DNA of 64,000 nt from Acinetobacter sp. ANC 4169. Lineage in GTDB: Bacteria; Pseudomonadota; Gammaproteobacteria; Pseudomonadales; Moraxellaceae. The notes beneath the pieces were generated by a model. It did not search any database. It was not told the origin of the DNA and saw nothing but the letters and a program-made list of their open reading frames with translations. Positions 3,893-48,052 of the stretch are shown here, in pieces. The first letter of the stretch is position 1. Each line of letters starts with the position of its first letter. The position numbers and the translations under genes were made by a program. The DNA lies in contig NZ_NEGE01000003.1 in NCBI RefSeq assembly GCF_002135355.1, positions 62,001-126,000 of the forward strand. Reading direction: 5' to 3'.

Positions 3893-4576
3893 GTGATCCA
3901 TCATATTCCTAACGTCCTCACTAAAGAACAAGTTCAATATTTCCGTGAAGAAATGAATAAAATTGAATGGGTCAATGGCAAAGTGACCGCGGGTACACTT
4001 TCGGCCACGGTTAAACAAAATCAGCAACTGCCTGAAGATCACCCGCTCACTCACCACTTAAGTACCATCATTTTAGAATCATTGGGACAACATCCCTTAT
4101 TTTTATCTGCTGCCATTCCGCTCGATATTATTCCCCCAATCTTTAACCGTTATGAAAACAATGAAGCTTTTGGCTTTCATGTGGACAATTCCATCCGTCG
4201 GATACGCGGCAGCAATGAGCGCCTACGTACAGACTTGTCCTGCACGGTTTTTTTAAGCGAGCCGGAGGAATACGAAGGCGGTGACCTGGTGGTAGAAGAT
4301 ACCTATGGCTATCATGAAATTAAACTTCCCGCAGGCGATATGATTCTCTACCCTTCCACCAGTGTACATGAAGTCACGCCGGTGACCTCCGGTTGCCGTC
4401 TCGCTTCATTCTTTTGGGTACAAAGCATGATCCGTGATGATGCAGAACGCCACATGTTATTTAATCTGGATCAAACTACTCAAAATTTACGTATGCAGTT
4501 GGGTGATCAACACCAAGAAGTGATTAAATTAACCAATCTTTATCATAATTTAATTCGCAAATGGGCTGAACTTTAA
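3893..4576 (+). CDS. piuC: PKHD-type Fe(II)/2-oxoglutarate dioxygenase (PiuC/YbiX)
   Basis: A 227-residue cytoplasmic non-haem iron oxygenase of the PiuC/YbiX family, which is encoded next to catecholate receptors in many Proteobacteria; the substrate is not established. The iron triad is visible: His96 and Asp98 in GFHVDNS, and His159 in TSVHEVTP. A downstream Arg in GCRLASFF should bind 2-oxoglutarate. The start is GTG at 3893 (MIHHIPNVL), matching the length and N-terminus of the paralogue at 7288. It follows receptor 1 after about 110 bases that contain terminator hairpins, so it may rely on readthrough or its own promoter. Confidence 0.9.
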   Translation: MIHHIPNVLTKEQVQYFREEMNKIEWVNGKVTAGTLSATVKQNQQLPEDHPLTHHLSTIILESLGQHPLFLSAAIPLDIIPPIFNRYENNEAFGFHVDNSIRRIRGSNERLRTDLSCTVFLSEPEEYEGGDLVVEDTYGYHEIKLPAGDMILYPSTSVHEVTPVTSGCRLASFFWVQSMIRDDAERHMLFNLDQTTQNLRMQLGDQHQEVIKLTNLYHNLIRKWAEL

Positions 4577-4943
4577 TTTTTATAGTGCAAAAATAATAAT
4601 AGGCTGATGAAATCTTATATAAGTCAGCCTAATTTATTACATACAAACATTTGAATCTTTTATTATTTTAACTTTTAGTCAAACTCAACTTCAATAGTAT
4701 CGTTTTTCCCTTTAAGCATGATTGCTTTATCTAATTAACAAGTTTGAATTAAGTCATATTTCCATCCGTTTAAATGACAATTCGATATCAATCACTATTG
4801 CTAATGATAATAATTATCATTAGAATTCGCATCAATTGTTACAGGCCATAACAATATCTCCACTTTTGCTGCTATTTTGCCGATTTTAAAAGTCGCAGGC
4901 AGTAATGGAATTCTGTCACATACGATATTAGGGATTACCGACC
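4577..4943 (+). other. Intergenic region between the two receptor modules
   Basis: A 367-base gap. It begins with a terminator-like hairpin (TAGGCTGA ... TCAGCCTA, about 4599-4631) closing the first module, then AT-rich sequence. It ends with a Fur-controlled promoter (4798-4826) and about 115 bases of leader before the second receptor. No reading frame was supported. Confidence 0.6.
4798..4826 (+). promoter_or_regulatory. Promoter of receptor 2 with Fur box in its spacer
   Basis: TTGCTA (4798-4803) and TAGAAT (4821-4826) are exactly 17 bases apart. A perfect 23-bp palindrome, CTAATGATAAT and ATTATCATTAG around a central A (4801-4823), fills the spacer. It contains the GATAATNATTATC core of the Fur consensus. 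Fur bound here would exclude RNA polymerase completely, predicting strict iron repression. Confidence 0.8.
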
Positions 4944-7178
4944 ATGGCACAAATCAAAAGCCGTAAACACCACAGAAATGCTCAACTGGTTGCCTTAGCG
5001 GCTTCGTTCCCGCTCATGACTCATGCAGCAACCAGCAATAGTGTAACCCAGCTGCCAACCATTACCGTGGAATCTAAAGCGGAAAATAAATATAAAGCCG
5101 ATAGCGTCAGTTCCCCAAAGTATACTCAGCCACTGGTCGATACCCCCCAAACCATTTCAGTGATTAAAAAAGAACTATTAAAAGAACAAGGTGCAACGTC
5201 TTTGGTTGAAGCCTTAAGAAACACCCCGGGAATTACTCTGCAACTGGGTGAAAATGGCAATACCAGTGCCGGTGATGCCTTTCAAATGCGCGGCTTTTCG
5301 ACTCAAACCTCTACCTATGTCGATGGTATCCGCGATTTGGGTGCGGTCACCCGCGATGTTTTTAACCTGGAACAGATTGAAGTGGTCAAAGGCCCGTCTG
5401 GTGCGGAAGCAGGCCGTGGCGCGGCATCAGGGTATATCAACCTGGCCAGCAAACTGCCTCAGACTGAAAATAGCCGTGAAGTTTCTGCCACTTACAATAC
5501 TGCAGAACATGCTCGCCTGACTGCCGACATTAATCAGGTGATTAACGATAGCGTGGCGGTTCGCTTAAATGCCATGGGCCAAGACGGCGGCGTTGAAGGT
5601 CGCGATTTTATTGAAAATAACGGCTGGGCCATTGCACCCTCGATTGCCTTTGGCCTGGATAGCGATACCCGCCTGTATCTGTATTCACAGCATATCCGTC
5701 AACGTAACATTCCGGATGGCGGTATCCCGACCGTTGGCATGAAGGGTTTCTACAATGCCGATTCTGCTTTAGCTTCAGCGCCTAAAGTCAACCGTGAAAA
5801 TTATTATGGCCAGGCCAATGACCATGAAGATGTCGATGCAGACATGTACACGGCAAAAATTGAAAGTGATTTGGCTGAAAACGTCAAACTAACCAATATC
5901 ACCCGTTTGGGCAAAACCCAGATGCAGCGGGTATTAACCGGGATAAATAGCCTTACCAACGGTTCGACCAATCCAAATAACTGGACCGTAAGTCGCTCTC
6001 GCCAAGGGGTAGATCAGGAAAATAAGATTCTTGCCAACCAAACTACCCTGAACCTGAATTTAAAAACCGGTGCCATTGAACATGATGTGGTTGCAGGTCT
6101 GGAATTCCTGAAAGAACAGCAACACAACAAAACCATGGCGACGCAAATGCCGGGGCAAACCACCATTACTGCTACACCGGCGAATTTATACAATCCAGAT
6201 CGTAATCAGGCACTACCTGGCTTGATTTATACTGGGGGGTACACCCATGGCGAAACAGATACAGCTGCAGCCTATTTATTTGACACACTTAAGTTTGGCG
6301 AACGCTTCCAGCTGAATGGCGGAGTGCGGGTCGATTATTACGACACTGAATATGATGCCCTGAGTGTACCAACAGGAAGTAGCGTTTTGACGCCATCGAA
6401 TTTGGGTGCACACGATACCTTGTTCAGCTGGAAACTGGGTGGTTTGTTTAAGCCAACTACTTTTAGCAGTGTGTATGCGTCTTATGCCAAATCGTTAACA
6501 CCTCCGGGAAGTGCCAACTTTAGTTTGTCTGCAGACGGTATTAATAGTGCTGCAGCAAAACCGCAAGAAACCCATCATTATGAAATTGGCACAAAATGGG
6601 ACTTGCTGGAAGGTAAATTGGCACTGAATGCAGCTGCTTACCGCACCGAAAATGAAAATCAGTTTACTCAGGATGCAATTACACGTGAATCCATCCAAGA
6701 GGGTAAAACAACCGTTAAAGGGGTTGAACTCAGCGCAGTAGGACAGATTACCGATGCATGGAATGTGTCTGCCGGTGTTGCACATATGAAAACTGAACAA
6801 AAAGATCAGCTCAGCGTTAATGCAACCACTGGAGCAATTACCAATACCAACAATGTACGCTGGTCACCGGAATGGACAGCGAGTTTATGGTCGACCTATG
6901 ACATTGCCGGATTCAAACTTGGTTTGGGCGCACGTTATGTCGATGATCAAAAACGTGTCATCACTGATAGCACTGCGGCTACACCAATGCCAAGCATTCC
7001 AAGTTATGTGGTGTTTGATGCCATGGCAGGTTACAGCTTCAATAAAAATGCCTCGGTCAACTTAAATGTCTATAACCTGGCAGATAAGGAATACATCAGC
7101 ACTTTAAACAATGGTGGCGGTCGTGTGGTGTTAGGACAACCGCGTTCAGCAGCACTGACCTTTAATTATAAGTTTTAA
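4944..7178 (+). CDS. TonB-dependent siderophore receptor 2 (Fiu/PiuA family)
   Basis: A 744-residue outer-membrane receptor, related to but clearly diverged from the product of 1473-3782. The signal peptide ends near LMTHAA (about residue 29), followed by a TonB-box-like LPTITVES. The plug lies at about 60-165 (PLVDTPQTISVIKKELL, LVEALRNTPGITLQLG, FQMRGFSTQTSTYVDGIRD, LEQIEVVKGPSGAEAGRG). The barrel ends in ALTFNYKF with terminal Phe. Codon use is visibly more GC-rich than in receptor 1, arguing against recent tandem duplication. A strong Fur-overlapped promoter precedes it, and a PiuC paralogue and an FMN enzyme follow, suggesting an iron-regulated operon. Confidence 0.88.
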   Translation: MAQIKSRKHHRNAQLVALAASFPLMTHAATSNSVTQLPTITVESKAENKYKADSVSSPKYTQPLVDTPQTISVIKKELLKEQGATSLVEALRNTPGITLQLGENGNTSAGDAFQMRGFSTQTSTYVDGIRDLGAVTRDVFNLEQIEVVKGPSGAEAGRGAASGYINLASKLPQTENSREVSATYNTAEHARLTADINQVINDSVAVRLNAMGQDGGVEGRDFIENNGWAIAPSIAFGLDSDTRLYLYSQHIRQRNIPDGGIPTVGMKGFYNADSALASAPKVNRENYYGQANDHEDVDADMYTAKIESDLAENVKLTNITRLGKTQMQRVLTGINSLTNGSTNPNNWTVSRSRQGVDQENKILANQTTLNLNLKTGAIEHDVVAGLEFLKEQQHNKTMATQMPGQTTITATPANLYNPDRNQALPGLIYTGGYTHGETDTAAAYLFDTLKFGERFQLNGGVRVDYYDTEYDALSVPTGSSVLTPSNLGAHDTLFSWKLGGLFKPTTFSSVYASYAKSLTPPGSANFSLSADGINSAAAKPQETHHYEIGTKWDLLEGKLALNAAAYRTENENQFTQDAITRESIQEGKTTVKGVELSAVGQITDAWNVSAGVAHMKTEQKDQLSVNATTGAITNTNNVRWSPEWTASLWSTYDIAGFKLGLGARYVDDQKRVITDSTAATPMPSIPSYVVFDAMAGYSFNKNASVNLNVYNLADKEYISTLNNGGGRVVLGQPRSAALTFNYKF

Positions 7179-42261: not shown

Positions 42262-42653
42262 GTTGTTCTCACTCCCATCATTTCAGACACACGACCATTT
42301 TCATTATCCATCCTGCTGATGCTGAACTTAAACTCATAAAAAATGCAGCACAGCAAACACAATTGAAAGGAAAATCAGTTGCACAGTATAGGGATTAGTG
42401 GTTCTGTACAAGGCATTACGCTTTCTTCCATATCTGTTGTTCATGGACAGCTAGATTGAGCTTCATGTTCAGCTAGTAACTTTTACTCAGAAACCTAACT
42501 AAGGCTTGGATATGCAAAGGTAAAACGGCAATAAGAAAATAAGTCATGTAATAGAAAAAGAGCCGGATTATCCGGCTCTTTCTTACGGTGAAAAGTATTC
42601 AATGAGTGCTAAAAAATTTTAATCTATTTTAAAACTCAGACTTCAATGAACTT
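42262..42653. other. Intergenic region upstream of mazG
   Basis: A 392-base gap between two same-strand (minus) transcription units. Apart from the terminator at 42561-42584 and the presumed mazG promoter, I see no gene. A plus-strand open frame entering from mazG (to about 42398) is an antisense shadow. Confidence 0.5.
42561..42584 (-). terminator. Terminator of the three-gene exported-protein operon
   Basis: AGCCGGAT / ATCCGGCT palindrome (42561-42577 region) with an AAAAAG tract on its left, read as T-rich on the minus strand. It follows the last operon gene (42654) by about 70 bases. Confidence 0.7.
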
Positions 42654-43346
42654 TTAAATATCATCAAGCACTTTTGGTTTTTCTGCAGAACTTGCAGGTA
42701 CTTTAAATTCAATACCGGCTTTTTTAAACAGTTTAGGATATTCCACCAAAGCCATACTTGAGTTTTTTGCAATTCCCGAAATGTCACCCATAACATTTTT
42801 GGCATCTACTAAAGACAGTCCTGTATTGGTTAAACTGCCTGGATTTGCCATCATGCTCATACTGACTTGTTTAGCGCCTAAAGCCAAATCACGTGCGGTT
42901 AAACTTGCAATCACAAAGTTTGTTGCAGAATCTAAAAGCAATTTCTTTTGTTTAGTATCTAGTGCTGAAAGCATTGCCACTGTCGCTGCTTCATCTTTTT
43001 TAGATGCTTCTAGAACCGCATTTGACATCGCGATAATTTCTTTTTGAATTGCTTCTTTTTCTTTCAGATCAGAAGTCGTTTTCAAGCTTTTTTGTTTTGC
43101 TTTTAATTCATCTGAATCTTTCTTGCTTGCCAGCAATGAAGCTAAAGCACTACGGCTCTGAATAAACATAGCATTGGTTGCTTTAGCTTGAGTAAAGAAA
43201 CCATTCAGATCCATATTTGAAGATGATACACCAGTCGCAGATTCTGTTAAGGTCGAAGCCAGACTACTGAGTGACCCAAAACCAGCATAGACGCTTGAAG
43301 CCCCCATAGATGCCGATACAGCTAAAACTATTGCAATCTTTTTCAT
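42654..43346 (-). CDS. Exported helical protein, third gene of a FlgT-like operon
   Basis: 230 residues, not recognised. It has a signal peptide (MKKIAIVLAVSASMGASSVYA) and a mature part that is Ala/Ser/Lys-rich and almost entirely helical (LDTKQKKLLLDSATNFVIAS, ALASLLASKKDSDELKAKQK). There is no lipobox or membrane helix, so it should be periplasmic or secreted. Its start is 12 bases after the preceding stop, and a terminator follows. Its constant association with the two FlgT-like genes upstream suggests a partner or chaperone; that is inference. Confidence 0.6.
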   Translation of the reverse strand: MKKIAIVLAVSASMGASSVYAGFGSLSSLASTLTESATGVSSSNMDLNGFFTQAKATNAMFIQSRSALASLLASKKDSDELKAKQKSLKTTSDLKEKEAIQKEIIAMSNAVLEASKKDEAATVAMLSALDTKQKKLLLDSATNFVIASLTARDLALGAKQVSMSMMANPGSLTNTGLSLVDAKNVMGDISGIAKNSSMALVEYPKLFKKAGIEFKVPASSAEKPKVLDDI

Positions 43347-43358
43347 ATCTTGTTACCC

Positions 43359-45419
43359 CTATTGTGTAGAATCGGCTTTTTGCACGATTTGATTTAAAAT
43401 TTTTGGTAAAGCTTCAAACATTTGAATGTTGTACATTTCCTGACGATGCAGGTGAGCAATGCCCTTTAAGCCAATTTCTTGCTGCAAACCATAAGCGCCA
43501 ACTTTTTCAGCTTTGGCATTAAATCTGCGAGCACCACTTGCCATGATTAATGTGGCATCGCAATTAGATTTATCGGCATTACATTTCACCGAGTTTTCTT
43601 TGACTTCAATCTTAAATACCGGCTGTAAACATTCATCTTTCGGAACATAAAAATTTGCATCCAGATTCTTTTTAAAACCTGAATTCTCGGTCATACGAAT
43701 GACCGCATCTTTGAGTAAGGTTTGCCCTTTAAAGCCAGCACCAGTGGCATAAAATGGTCGTTTCGACTGACTGCTAAACGCGTGATAAATGAGCGGACCA
43801 AAACCATAAAATGGAATTTCGCCGACTTGGTCGGTATGCAAGCCCGGGCACAAGACACGTGCCTGTTTTGAATCGCCAACTGGAGCAGAACTATCAATCA
43901 AAATACGGTCACCCGAACGTACCGGTAAACGATCACTGCTGCTTATCGGGAAATCTAACTGAGCGCTCACTTTTGTACCTTGGCGTTCAACAATGGTTGC
44001 TTCCCACGTCGGAATCAGGATATTGCGCTGCGCAGCTTTGTCCTGATGATAGACATGCACTTTCATGCCTGCACTTAATCGCTCACCAGCATCATCAATT
44101 GTGATACTTTGTCCGCTAGAACCAGAGACTTTTAAATCTGCACGAGTAAACTGAAGACCTTTCTGGAACTTTTGCCCCAATTGAAGCAATGCATTTTTTA
44201 ACGCAACTTCTTTACGTGCTTCTAAAGAAAAACCCATACCTTCAGAAACAATATCTTTAATATCATCCGTCGCATGTGCTGAATAAATGACCCGACCGGA
44301 ACGATCAATCATTTCTGCAAACACTTCGCTATGAAAAACTTGCTGCTGCGTCATCTTGCCAATCTGCTGCTGATAGGCAATCACAGGAATAACATTAATA
44401 CGAATAAAAAATTCTGGCAGATCACGCTGATTGATATCTTTACTTTGTGCCAACGATGTCTGTTCGCTGATGCTTTGTGCCATGGCACTATAACGTCGGT
44501 TGACTGGCGTAAGTGAAAAGGAAGCCTGCTCACCTACGGCATCGGAGAAGATCTGTTCAATGAGATCTTTTGATTCACCTTGATAGGTTAAGACATCAAC
44601 CACTAAAGCCTTGGGCTTGTTCATTGCCTGACGGGTATTGGTGGATATCTTGCTAAATTGTTTGGCATTGCCTTGCATTAATACCGGTAATGCAACGGCA
44701 TAGTCGCTGTCAGCATGCACAATCCGGATTAAATCACCTTCTGCCGAACTCAATTCATCCTGTGCTGCAATGCCCTGATTAAAACCTTTATCTAAGACCA
44801 GATAAGATTTCCACTGATCAATGACTTTGGTCTCGATTTCCGCAACATTTAATTTAGATTTTAATCCCTGTGCCACTTGCTGGGTCAAGGTCAGCAAGGT
44901 ACTTTGAAATTTCTGCTTAATTGCAGCTTTGGTTGCTGCTGATTCAAGTTCGCTGCTCAGCACCTGAATCGGTTGAGACAAAGTTGCACTGTCACTATAA
45001 ATGACTTCGCCAGACAATATATTGGTGAGTTTCAAACTCAGGGTCACAGGCAGAAAAATTTCGGCCGTTGAATCTTTTTTAACAACGTATTCACTTGCAC
45101 GGAGTACTTCTAAGGATGCCACATAAGTACGATGCTTGTTCTTTTGTGAAATAGTGGCAACCACCTGATCGCCAAAATTTTGCTTCAAACTTTGCAGAAA
45201 AATTTGCTCAGCCTGCTGACGTGTAGAGTCATTGTCTATTGCTTGACTGAAATCACACACAATTGAAGAACCATTGGCTTCATATGTATTCGGATCAGCA
45301 CGACAACCCTGTTCTAAGCCAAAAATCCCTTTGGAAGGATAAATTTCAATATCTGCATGTGCCCATACAGTGAATAGCATAGGCAGCGCCAAACTTAGAG
45401 CCTTAAGTTTTATTTGCAT
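43359..45419 (-). CDS. Large exported protein with FlgT-like middle and C-terminal modules
   Basis: 686 residues with a signal peptide (MQIKLKALSLALPMLFTVWAHA). The N-terminal third has an even Cys pair and mixed alpha/beta structure. A small beta-barrel-like unit is at about 205-245 (YLVLDKGFNQGIAAQDEL, GDLIRIVHA). A TolB/FlgT-M-like domain begins at about 270 (KALVVDVLTYQGESKDLIEQ), and a second barrel-like unit is at about 430-510 (GQSITIDDAGERLSAGMKVHVY, LPVRSGDRILID). The C-terminal 150 residues are Cys-containing. Start ATG 45419 overlaps the preceding stop by ten bases. Periplasmic or outer-membrane-associated; function unknown. Confidence 0.6.
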   Translation of the reverse strand: MQIKLKALSLALPMLFTVWAHADIEIYPSKGIFGLEQGCRADPNTYEANGSSIVCDFSQAIDNDSTRQQAEQIFLQSLKQNFGDQVVATISQKNKHRTYVASLEVLRASEYVVKKDSTAEIFLPVTLSLKLTNILSGEVIYSDSATLSQPIQVLSSELESAATKAAIKQKFQSTLLTLTQQVAQGLKSKLNVAEIETKVIDQWKSYLVLDKGFNQGIAAQDELSSAEGDLIRIVHADSDYAVALPVLMQGNAKQFSKISTNTRQAMNKPKALVVDVLTYQGESKDLIEQIFSDAVGEQASFSLTPVNRRYSAMAQSISEQTSLAQSKDINQRDLPEFFIRINVIPVIAYQQQIGKMTQQQVFHSEVFAEMIDRSGRVIYSAHATDDIKDIVSEGMGFSLEARKEVALKNALLQLGQKFQKGLQFTRADLKVSGSSGQSITIDDAGERLSAGMKVHVYHQDKAAQRNILIPTWEATIVERQGTKVSAQLDFPISSSDRLPVRSGDRILIDSSAPVGDSKQARVLCPGLHTDQVGEIPFYGFGPLIYHAFSSQSKRPFYATGAGFKGQTLLKDAVIRMTENSGFKKNLDANFYVPKDECLQPVFKIEVKENSVKCNADKSNCDATLIMASGARRFNAKAEKVGAYGLQQEIGLKGIAHLHRQEMYNIQMFEALPKILNQIVQKADSTQ

Positions 45420-46918
45420 TGCGTGCCACCAATGCAAAGGGTAATGGTGTTACCGGCTTGCAAGCGTTCAGCATTCGACAGCGTTGGATTGACTTTACGT
45501 AATGCTTTGGCCAATTCAGCAGAGATAGGCTTTGCACTCTTGTAGGTCATAGTCATTTCAACCAGTTTGCCATCTTGAGTACGAATATCCACATTTTCCG
45601 CACCGTCCATCTCATCCAGAGCTATATATAAATCATCGCCTAAACGCGAAGAAACATTCCCCGAAACGCTTTTCACAAAAATGGTAATTTCCTTACCGTA
45701 CATCGAACGATTTTTTGCATAACCTAAAATCTGTGGACCAATCCGGCCAATTGTCAATTCACCTAGCTTATTCGCTACATTGGTTCGACATGTATCAGTC
45801 GTTGCGCCAGTTGCTGATTCAGTACGCGTTTCGCCGCCCATTAAGGTTGAATCATCGACTGAATAAATTTTAAAGCTTACTGCACCATCACATACAAATT
45901 GACCGGTAGCCTGTGAACGGCCACGATCATAAATATATGAACTTCCCGCCATAAACCAGTCAGCTTTTTCTTTGCGTGCGGCTGTTACCAGTTTATTCAA
46001 CTCTACATCGCTCGTTAATTGCTGAATAGTCATACTACGACCATTCAAATACTGGCTTTTAAAACGGTCGGAATCGAGTAAGCGCAAATCATAACGAGAG
46101 GCTGAATCCGCTATTGCATTTAAAGTCTGGTTATCTCGTTCAGCTTTGGTGCTTGGGGTCTGATATTCCACATACTTCACAAAACTCTGAATATCATTTT
46201 GACGTTCTGACTGGCTGTATTTGGCTGACTCACTGGCATTATAGCTACTTGAAGAAGCCGACTTACCCGAGTTGTTATGACTTGCTGAGCGTGCAGAAAC
46301 CCCTACACCTGCACCATAATAATTATCATAGGCATAACCAGATGCGGCAGCTGAACGTCCTTTTGATGAATAAGAATCGGAGGCACTGGCTTTGGCACTT
46401 TCACTGGCTTTATAACTGGCATCTTCATCATAGCTATAGCTACGATCTGAAAAATAAGAGGTAAATTCTTTGACCGGTTTGGAATTATCTTTAGGAACGC
46501 CAAAATACTCATCCATCACGATCATAATCGGGCTGGTGCGGCTATTTTTTTTCGCCAGTCCAAGATCGTTTAAAATCGAACGAAACTCTTGATCATCCAT
46601 TTCTAGGCTGACTTGTGTCACCAATTCATTATTGCCTTGGGTTGAGCTGCCACGGTTAATAATGTAAGTAGAGTCAACTTGCTTCACTATGTCATCTAGA
46701 TACTGCTGTGCTTCCCCCATTGCTTGTGGACCATTTATTTTTTTGATCATGGCAATGACAGCATCTGTTTTCGCATTGTTGAATGCTTGATTACGCGTAG
46801 CGTTTGGATCTTTTTTTATAATGGCTGCTTTACCTTCGCCATTCACTTTAATGATTTCCGCATTGGAGACTTGAACCGAACCCAAACACATGAGTGCCAA
46901 TATGGTTTTTTTCATCAT
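45410..46918 (-). CDS. Exported FlgT_N/LPP20-like protein with Ser/Ala-rich linker
   Basis: 502 residues with a signal peptide (MMKKTILALMCLGSVQVSNA). Residues about 21-120 resemble the FlgT N-terminal/LPP20 fold: KVNGEGKAAIIKKDPNATRN, AFNNAKTDAVIAMIKK, VDSTYIINRG. A low-complexity stretch at about 160-240 is dominated by Ser, Ala, Tyr and Lys. A C-terminal domain follows with CsgG/TolB-like alternation (ADWFMAGSSYIYDRG, TGQFVCDGAVSFKIYSVDD, GGETRTESATGATTDTCRTN). There are Cys pairs near 350, 390 and the C-terminus. SD AAAAGGG precedes ATG 46918. First gene of the operon. Homology is by eye only. Confidence 0.62.
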   Translation of the reverse strand: MMKKTILALMCLGSVQVSNAEIIKVNGEGKAAIIKKDPNATRNQAFNNAKTDAVIAMIKKINGPQAMGEAQQYLDDIVKQVDSTYIINRGSSTQGNNELVTQVSLEMDDQEFRSILNDLGLAKKNSRTSPIMIVMDEYFGVPKDNSKPVKEFTSYFSDRSYSYDEDASYKASESAKASASDSYSSKGRSAAASGYAYDNYYGAGVGVSARSASHNNSGKSASSSSYNASESAKYSQSERQNDIQSFVKYVEYQTPSTKAERDNQTLNAIADSASRYDLRLLDSDRFKSQYLNGRSMTIQQLTSDVELNKLVTAARKEKADWFMAGSSYIYDRGRSQATGQFVCDGAVSFKIYSVDDSTLMGGETRTESATGATTDTCRTNVANKLGELTIGRIGPQILGYAKNRSMYGKEITIFVKSVSGNVSSRLGDDLYIALDEMDGAENVDIRTQDGKLVEMTMTYKSAKPISAELAKALRKVNPTLSNAERLQAGNTITLCIGGTQCK

Positions 46919-47623
46919 TCATACCCTTTTCACTAAAGTTTTTATCTATTAATAAGTAAAATTTATAGACTTTTAACGTGATTTTTATAAAATACAAAAA
47001 ACATACAAATTATAACAAATTTAAATATCAACACCATCACATAATTTTATTTTTTATTGATTTCTTATGCCAATTGATTAATAAATTGATTTGCCTTGTA
47101 AAATTATTAACAAATTAAACTCCCATAGAATTTTATCAATTTATTCTTCTAGTTAACTTTGAGTACATATTTTAAAAACTTCGACAAATTTCACTCAAGG
47201 AAACATAAATAGAAAAGGAAACCAATGTATTAAAGAATGATTATTACGGATATTATTATTTAAATTACCCCTAACAATTGTATGCAATTTCAGATGAAAG
47301 AGCTGGTATTTACCCCCAAACCTACAAATGCAGACCGGTAAAAAACTAAATTTGGTTTAATCCATCAAAGAAGTCTAGCCATAGTTGATTCGCCGCATTG
47401 AGAATAGGCTTGAAGAAGAAGGCAAAATAGCAATTTCTAAAAAAATAGAACCTCTATTCTTTCATCTACTTTAGAAACAACCTCAGGCTGCAAGAATTGG
47501 AGTAGAATAGTGAAGTACCATTTACCCATAACAATTGGTAAAACTTTACTTAAAAAACACCTATGGGCATTGTCTAATTTTGACTAAAATTATTTTTACC
47601 CCCTTTTCAATAAGGCGATAATA
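46919..47623. other. Long AT-rich non-coding region with a 16-bp direct repeat
   Basis: 705 bases between divergent genes with no supported reading frame. A near-perfect direct repeat occurs: TTACCCCTAACAATTG (47265-47280) and TTACCCATAACAATTG (47522-47537), one mismatch, 257 bases apart. The DNA between them is less AT-rich than its flanks and could be a decayed insertion. The left part must hold the promoter of the FlgT-like operon; the right part that of the lipoprotein gene. Confidence 0.5.
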
Positions 47624-48052
47624 ATGAAAAATTCTCTTCTTATTTTAATCAGCAGCTTAAGTTTAATGGCATGTACCACTATGCCACATTCATCCGATAA
47701 AAATACTTTTCAGAATAACTCAATAAATTCGGCACCGAATGGTAATGCCACCAAAGAGGTTTCTGTCGATGGCAGTTATACGGGTGAAATTGTAGGTGAT
47801 TATAAAAATTCTAAATTTTCCCAGTTAAAAATTGGGATGTCACAACGTCAGGTAGAAGATCTAGTGGGTGCTTCAACAGACCAAAGAAGCTATCAAACCG
47901 CCAAAGCCTGGATACCTGTTGCAGGTGCTTTTTCTAAAGATCAATTCCGTATCGAAGCCTATTATCCTGGCGCAGGCCGCTTACTTTATGCAAATAATGG
48001 AACGAAGTTATATCGAATTGAAGTAGATCGTAGCGAAGATGGCCTTCAATAA
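47624..48052 (+). CDS. BamE/SmpA-like lipoprotein
   Basis: 142 residues with a lipoprotein signal peptide and lipobox LMAC (Cys17). A Ser/Asn-rich linker is followed by a domain at about 62-140 containing FSQLKIGMSQRQVEDLVGAS, the GMSxxQVxxLxG pattern of the SmpA/OmlA/BamE fold, and RIEAYYPGAGRLLYAN with a YRIEVDR strand. It is a small outer-membrane-anchored lipoprotein, not the core BamE itself. It has its own terminator at 48112. Function unknown. Confidence 0.75.
   Translation: MKNSLLILISSLSLMACTTMPHSSDKNTFQNNSINSAPNGNATKEVSVDGSYTGEIVGDYKNSKFSQLKIGMSQRQVEDLVGASTDQRSYQTAKAWIPVAGAFSKDQFRIEAYYPGAGRLLYANNGTKLYRIEVDRSEDGLQ

Follow-up and report, generated by a model that had tools for sequence, protein, structure and literature searches.

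Three adjacent genes of Acinetobacter sp. ANC 4169, here termed A, B and C, transfer horizontally as a unit of about 4.4 kb, and in one mobile branch this cassette has defence genes as neighbours. The trio is rare yet kept together. These observations go beyond the original prediction, which was made from the 64,000-nucleotide stretch that we call the window and which proposed an operon of exported proteins with FlgT-like domains; taken as a whole, that interpretation is partly supported. We observed a packed gene unit with export-type starts (judged by eye), a partial resemblance to FlgT, conservation, transfer as a cassette, and absence of FlgI in 15 carriers. Our explanation, plausible and tentatively held, is that A, B and C may be one transcriptional and functional unit forming a horizontally spread periplasmic scaffold, with FlgT-type domains re-used outside flagella.

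Gene unit and domain content

The trio lies on the minus strand of the window, and the coordinates expected for three packed signal-peptide genes were confirmed.

45410..46918, minus strand: gene A, 502 aa, ATG start, exported (signal-peptide-like start, by eye)
43359..45419, minus strand: gene B, 686 aa from ATG, exported (signal-peptide-like start, by eye)
42654..43346, minus strand: gene C, 230 aa, exported (signal-peptide-like start, by eye), no family
42555..42583, minus strand: terminator hairpin 3' of C, 13 pairs followed by U's, -19.4 kcal/mol, z -6.4
46919..47063, minus strand: upstream block of about 145 nt, common to most mobile copies, probable promoter region

Ten bases (45410-45419) are shared by A and B, and a gap of 12 (43347-43358) lies between B and C. 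An alternative in-frame TTG of B at 45437 would give 692 aa. The terminator that had been placed at the end of the trio was missed by a simple terminator scan and revealed by strand folding, 71 bases beyond the stop of C. Purifying selection acts on the genes: dN/dS is 0.03-0.12 across the 6 comparisons that include the window and 0.05-0.39 across the 12 that do not.

The neighbours of the trio in the window are ordinary in kind. One flank holds what we take, from sequence, to be MazG- and ComEA-like genes, and the other presumably a small lipoprotein, a phosphopantetheinyl transferase, Der and BamB. The transferase was confirmed by Pfam, while the lipoprotein has a sub-threshold BamE match.

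The three proteins had been called unrecognised, and this held: Pfam, NCBIfam, PADLOC and PHROGs gave no description of A, B or C, with all library matches below cut-off. By the curated Pfam cut-offs none of them belongs to FlgT, LPP20, CsgG or TolB. For C there was nothing substantial in Pfam or NCBIfam. PADLOC returned nothing beyond chance for the trio (best E 0.0035) and PHROGs no convincing family (best E 0.0079, for B). Sequences of solved structures gave no significant match to A or B, either as single sequences (best E 0.41) or as profiles. AlphaFold models of the two proteins, built from five rows (the window and L014-L017), were unusable, with mean pLDDT of 35.7 and 34.6. In the titles and abstract openings of literature on FlgT, CsgG, LPP20, TolB, LpoB/DUF1425 and FlgT in Acinetobacter, no such trio is described. 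Among the plasmid records discussed below, 3 of the 5 annotate the genes as “hypothetical protein” and the other 2 have no gene table.

Families of A, B and C were compared with FlgT, LPP20 and CsgG by hhalign, against 25 column-shuffled copies per target. The FlgT rows, all 8 of them kept, were drawn from the 8 genomes with FlgT among 56 in the window's order. LPP20 loci were 20 of the 34 matches listed and CsgG loci 20 of the 20 listed; we excluded those whose frames looked wrong (L056 and L058, 2 of 20, for LPP20; L081, L083 and L084, 3 of 19, for CsgG), and L086 gave no frame. The first run used 10, 9 and 8 rows for A, B and C, and the second 19 per gene. The third used sub-alignments lacking the signal peptide, with 19 B rows and 18 A rows (L022 in the B rows only). 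L037 is among the second-run profile rows, absent from the residue-conservation alignments of A, B and C, and left out of the count of A insert lengths.

46697..46861, minus strand: FlgT_N-like stretch of A, residues 20-74, hhalign probability 85.9%, score 43.7 against 15.4 for the best of 25 shuffles
46184..46507, minus strand: Ser/Ala/Gly/Tyr-rich insert of A, residues 138-245, bounds from the search pattern
45923..45967, minus strand: weakly CsgG-like strand of A, residues 318-332, 2.1%, score 23.9 against best shuffle 16.8
44979..45047, minus strand: weakly CsgG-like strand of B, residues 125-147, 41.2%, score 36.5 against best shuffle 15.7, 23 columns
43884..44162, minus strand: putative FlgT_C-like barrel of B, residues 420-512, 29.0%, score 30.2 against best shuffle 16.4

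The shuffle control is lenient. A trivial match of B to LPP20 over 17 columns beats it (20.2 against 13.2), and so does C against LPP20 over 7 signal-peptide columns only (18.8 against 10.5), so beating the shuffles is insufficient by itself. With this in mind, the profile-profile check that had been proposed leaves the likeness of A to FlgT_N clear and well supported, that of B to FlgT_C moderate, and the LPP20- and CsgG/TolB-like readings weak.

Protein A had been expected to start with a FlgT_N-like domain, and in three runs the probability against FlgT was 88.7, 85.0 and 85.9%. The sole Pfam match of A is also to FlgT_N, below cut-off (E 0.015, 16.2 bits against a gathering score of 28.8), and 3 of the 10 A rows have such a sub-threshold match (E up to 1). 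The LPP20-like reading of the same start is present in the alignments and weak: from about residue 25, over 95 columns, the score is 24.0 against a best shuffle of 10.4, with a probability of 7.2% in that run and 7-25% across runs, and Pfam LPP20 does not match A.

The Ser/Ala-rich linker foreseen in A corresponds to the insert listed above, which is 108 aa long in each of the 15 Moraxellaceae copies measured, against 145, 145 and 156 aa in three alpha- and betaproteobacterial ones. As for the CsgG/TolB-like end of A, a weak CsgG-like strand exists (about 1-2% across runs), but it lies in the middle of the protein rather than at its end. The middle scores 19.5 against FlgT (best shuffle 17.5), and the C-terminal part 16.7 (best shuffle 18.9); the last ~100 residues match no family tested by hhalign.

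For B, TolB/FlgT-M-like and small-barrel modules had been predicted. The barrel stands as a moderately supported FlgT_C-like domain (24-37%): the probability against FlgT was 36.8, 23.9 and 29.0% in the three runs, the last value being for residues 420-512 against the final ~90 columns of FlgT. With whole B, in the second run, the match spans 96 columns, starting at the helix that precedes the final FlgT domain and reaching the FlgT terminus. The CsgG/TolB-like piece is weak, with a range of 12-41% across runs; its highest value comes from residues 20-264 against CsgG. Residues 190-264 score 24.0 against FlgT (best shuffle 17.2, 7.5%), and residues 265-520 score 17.2 against CsgG (best shuffle 16.2). 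Neither A nor B has a Pfam CsgG match.

An internal duplication of B was unsupported (halves 19.2 against best shuffle 19.9; barrels 11.4 against 14.5), and so was kinship between A and B (middle of A against B, 14.0 and 14.1, with best shuffles of 19.2 and 22.3).

All 18 aligned rows of A keep cysteines 343, 377 and 495, and all 19 of B keep cysteines 524 and 597, which would fit periplasmic disulphides. C scores 16.5 against FlgT (best shuffle 16.6) and 16.3 against CsgG (12.2). Its C-terminal tail is conserved, with P217 and S219 nearly invariant.

Distribution and horizontal transfer

Gene A is present in 13 of 175 congeneric genomes, and in a first congener sample it was found in 0 of 24 genomes besides the window's own. 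For gene B, overlapping samples gave 2 carriers among 293 genomes from the order, 2 among 61 from the family (a sample built around a carrier), and none besides the window's genome among 398 from the phylum or 369 from the class. The trio is also found in 5 of 72,556 plasmid records, from Psychrobacter urativorans, two Cupriavidus, Caballeronia grimmiae and Novosphingobium humi. No phage record matched A or B, and the 26 and 38 pattern-matching stretches in viral contigs encoded no relative, so a phage origin is unsupported.

The genes stay together in relatives, which supports the original prediction. A, B and C occur in the same order at 20/20 distinct loci, in gamma-, beta- and alphaproteobacteria. 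This count consists of 19 loci (the window counted once) and L022, added by eye, where a frame break divides A in two; every locus was found via A or B. The surroundings vary. The MazG-Der site is shared by the window, L027, L036 and L037, with a shift of one gene in L029 and L030. A second site is used by L028, L031 and L034, and L033 and L040 have sites of their own. Accessory sites hold L032, L035, L038, L039 and the plasmid L018, and the beta- and alphaproteobacterial records lie elsewhere.

In the trees, the Psychrobacter plasmid groups with genomes G723, G127, G135 and G146 in a mobile branch (support 96/94 for B, 95/99 for A). When the window's DNA is matched with these five mobile copies, similarity starts 144-145 nt before A in four of them and 30 nt before it in L018; beyond C it lasts for 2 nt in four of them and for 33 nt in L038. 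The remaining pairs vary: upstream, their match ends anywhere between a point inside A and about 160 nt, and downstream between 1 and about 160 nt.

Comparison with BamB separates transfer from descent. G723, from another Moraxellaceae genus, is 34% identical to the window in BamB, 90% in A and 84% in B. In G127, G135 and G146, BamB is 77-78% identical, A 90-91% and B 84%. In these four genomes A and B are above BamB in identity, which indicates transfer. On the other hand, A tracks BamB in G046, G175 and G176 (BamB 90-91%, A 88-92%), in G078 and G084 (77% and 80%) and in G047, G115 and G144 (67-68% and 66-68%, with B at 52-53%), which is consistent with descent.

Possible roles

In the tentative scaffold explanation, co-transcribed A, B and C would act together. 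A and B would re-use blocks of the H-ring protein FlgT, namely the FlgT_N-like domain in A and the FlgT_C-like barrel and CsgG/TolB-like piece in B, and would together build a scaffold on the periplasmic side of the outer membrane, possibly stabilised by disulphides. The 108-residue Ser/Ala/Tyr-rich loop of A could serve as a flexible arm, and C could be a periplasmic partner that docks via its conserved tail. In Moraxellaceae this assembly would be unconnected with flagella, and the cell might benefit from envelope reinforcement, from transport, or from a barrier to phage or plasmids.

The lack of flagella had been part of the original argument. The flagellar P-ring gene FlgI, used as a single marker, was found in 0 of 15 Moraxellaceae carriers, plasmid hosts aside, and in both positive controls. 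Several points speak against the scaffold. Only the FlgT_N match is strong, the library matches are below cut-off, the first barrel-like region of B (residues 151-249) is akin to MreC, C is unexplained, and the beta- and alphaproteobacterial hosts may be flagellated. Cupriavidus and Caballeronia usually are.

A curli/CsgG-like secretion device, with A and B as exporter and C as cargo or chaperone, would also account for the CsgG-like strands in both A and B and for C being small, exported and conserved in its tail. The pore-constriction loop of CsgG sits after the first strand of its TolB-like part, and the insert of A follows the apparent first strand of such a part, in the matching place. 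We nevertheless consider this reading unlikely: the CsgG matches span just 15 and 23 columns, Pfam CsgG recognises neither protein, A and B of the window have no lipobox and A has no CsgG-like membrane hairpins (by eye), and other CsgG-family genes exist in the genome, at 2 places.

The neighbours of the mobile branch raise the question of defence. HsdR lies 0.65 kb (L039) and 0.76 kb (L032) upstream of A, and in L038 an hsdM-S-R set begins 0.3 kb past C. Type I restriction genes are thus within 0.8 kb of the trio in 3 of the 5 mobile copies, a raw count from one branch. The best HsdR models differ (PDLC03048 in L032, PDLC03040 in L039), and the restriction associations therefore look separate. 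On plasmid L018, a HsdM-type methylase and an annotated HsdS are about 10 kb from the trio. In L035, A has next to it a HipA-like gene with a small partner gene that looks HipB-like by eye, and in L040, outside the mobile branch, a HipA-like gene is about 2 kb from A. Two PADLOC candidates, PDC-S26 and PDC-S18, are also present in L032, together with a gene that weakly matches viperin (3.8e-8). These defence scans covered chosen neighbours (10 + 10 proteins).

Together with the patchy, moving distribution of the trio, such neighbours would suit a defence-island system that acts at the envelope to defend against, or exclude, phages or conjugative elements. This is improbable in our judgement, since the trio itself has no PADLOC match beyond chance, the window and 9 other non-mobile Acinetobacter copies have no obvious defence neighbour (judged from gene order alone), and the counts are raw ones from five mobile copies that form a single branch. 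The more specific idea of a transferable envelope machine unrelated to flagella, made of a split FlgT and the new protein C, which would spread alongside restriction systems and shield the outer membrane by excluding phages or plasmids, is equally doubtful.

Lastly, a peptidoglycan-synthesis accessory complex akin to the LpoB/DUF1425/CsgG-like cluster is the least probable of these accounts. In its favour, G864 has a DUF1425 gene (E 6.5e-16) on the strand of A, 120 nt upstream of that gene, and at another place (G000:C3) the window genome groups LpoB and DUF1425 with a TPR protein and a CsgG/FlgT_M-like protein. Against it, DUF1425 adjoins the trio at 1 of 20 loci (upstream genes scanned at part of the loci) and A and B match the CsgG/FlgT_M-like protein poorly (A 24.5 against best shuffle 17.5, probability 1.0%; B 27.7 against 28.7). 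For the start of A against this family, the score was 18.7 (best shuffle 14.6, 0.6%), and kinship was judged unconvincing. In L020 and L021 the gene before A is small and TPR-like; like the DUF1425 neighbour, it is not universal.

If the scaffold explanation is true, ring-type periplasmic domains have a second use, in bacteria without flagella. The cassette within Moraxellaceae, with relatives in Burkholderiaceae and Sphingomonadaceae, offers a compact three-gene system on which this second use of FlgT-type domains can be tested.

Comparison with known systems

The G000:C3 cluster resembles the trio in its periplasmic domain types and in that DUF1425 adjoins the trio in one genus, while its gene content is different and convincing homology to A or B is lacking. 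Likeness to the MreC barrel (PF04085, PRK13922) concerns residues 151-249 of B (NCBIfam E 4e-4), at 19.5 bits against a cut-off of 243; the Pfam MreC match is also below cut-off (E 0.033, 14.4 against 28 bits), though a sub-threshold match is found in 5 of 9 B rows, and no mre genes adjoin the trio. With the CsgG/TolB_N-type alpha/beta domain, A and B share single strands, whereas membrane hairpins, a lipobox (both by eye) and a Pfam match are missing. To the LPP20/FlgP-type domain (PF02169), A aligns with a low score; it differs in being unrecognised by Pfam and, in the window copy, in having no lipobox (by eye).

The closest comparison is with FlgT. Excerpts of PMC7990780 and PMC6375700 place it in the periplasm, as a constituent of the Vibrio H-ring alongside the lipoproteins FlgO and FlgP, and PMC4446572, in the part consulted, describes its C-domain as a six-stranded barrel topped by a helix. 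According to an excerpt of PMC4960245, flgT is reported in the non-motile Aeromonas salmonicida, and so loss of motility alone is no proof of a new use. Among the FlgT-bearing genomes we compared, 6 of 8 have an LPP20 gene within 0.6 kb upstream. The whole window genome has no LPP20/FlgP-type gene, and thus the usual ring partner is missing. The 15 trio carriers surveyed also differ in having no P-ring gene, and the trio proteins remain below the Pfam cut-off. What the trio shares with FlgT (PF16548 FlgT_N, PF16539 FlgT_M, FlgT_C) is the FlgT_N-like start of A, the helix and putative FlgT_C-like barrel of B, and export-type starts. Instead of FlgT_N, FlgT_M and FlgT_C within one protein, the trio splits the N-like part (A) and the C-like part (B) over two larger proteins with extra parts.

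Genes next to gene A

In the window, the neighbour divergent from A is a BamE-like lipoprotein gene, and gene-order comparison found no such gene next to the trio at the other loci compared. Different genes lie upstream of A in relatives.

window 47624-48052, gene for the BamE-like lipoprotein, oriented away from A
L040 (G864, another genus of the family) 6743-7174, DUF1425 gene, 120 nt upstream of A
L020 (Caballeronia) 5845-6342, small TPR-like gene, directly upstream of A
L021 (Novosphingobium) 5830-6180, small TPR-like gene, directly upstream of A

By eye, both TPR-like genes are lipoprotein-like.

The trio in plasmid records

By annotation, the Caballeronia trio is flanked by a TerD/TerY-type cluster on one side and a site-specific integrase on the other, both within 8 kb. 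In Cupriavidus sp. EM10, either a lesion or a sequencing error divides gene A between two reading frames; B and C appear intact there.

L020 12665-17477, TerD/TerY-type gene cluster (annotation)
L022 (Cupriavidus sp. EM10) about 4054-5861, gene A in two reading frames

Related loci in the same genome

Two further loci were found in the window's own genome, G000.

L090 (contig C28) 6514-8786, second CsgG-family gene with its neighbours
L089 (contig C3) 7435-10873, cluster of TPR protein, DUF1425, LpoB and CsgG/FlgT_M-like protein

In L090 the CsgG-family gene lies beside genes for a small exported protein and for a secreted protein in which 'TSAIGAVNTGSI'-like motifs recur; this may be a curli- or holdfast-like export locus. 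The CsgG/FlgT_M-like protein of L089 matches Pfam CsgG (4.6e-9), with FlgT_M below cut-off (6.1e-6). Its family ends in TPGSS[ED]KP in 4/5 rows, a C-terminus reminiscent of the protein C tail.
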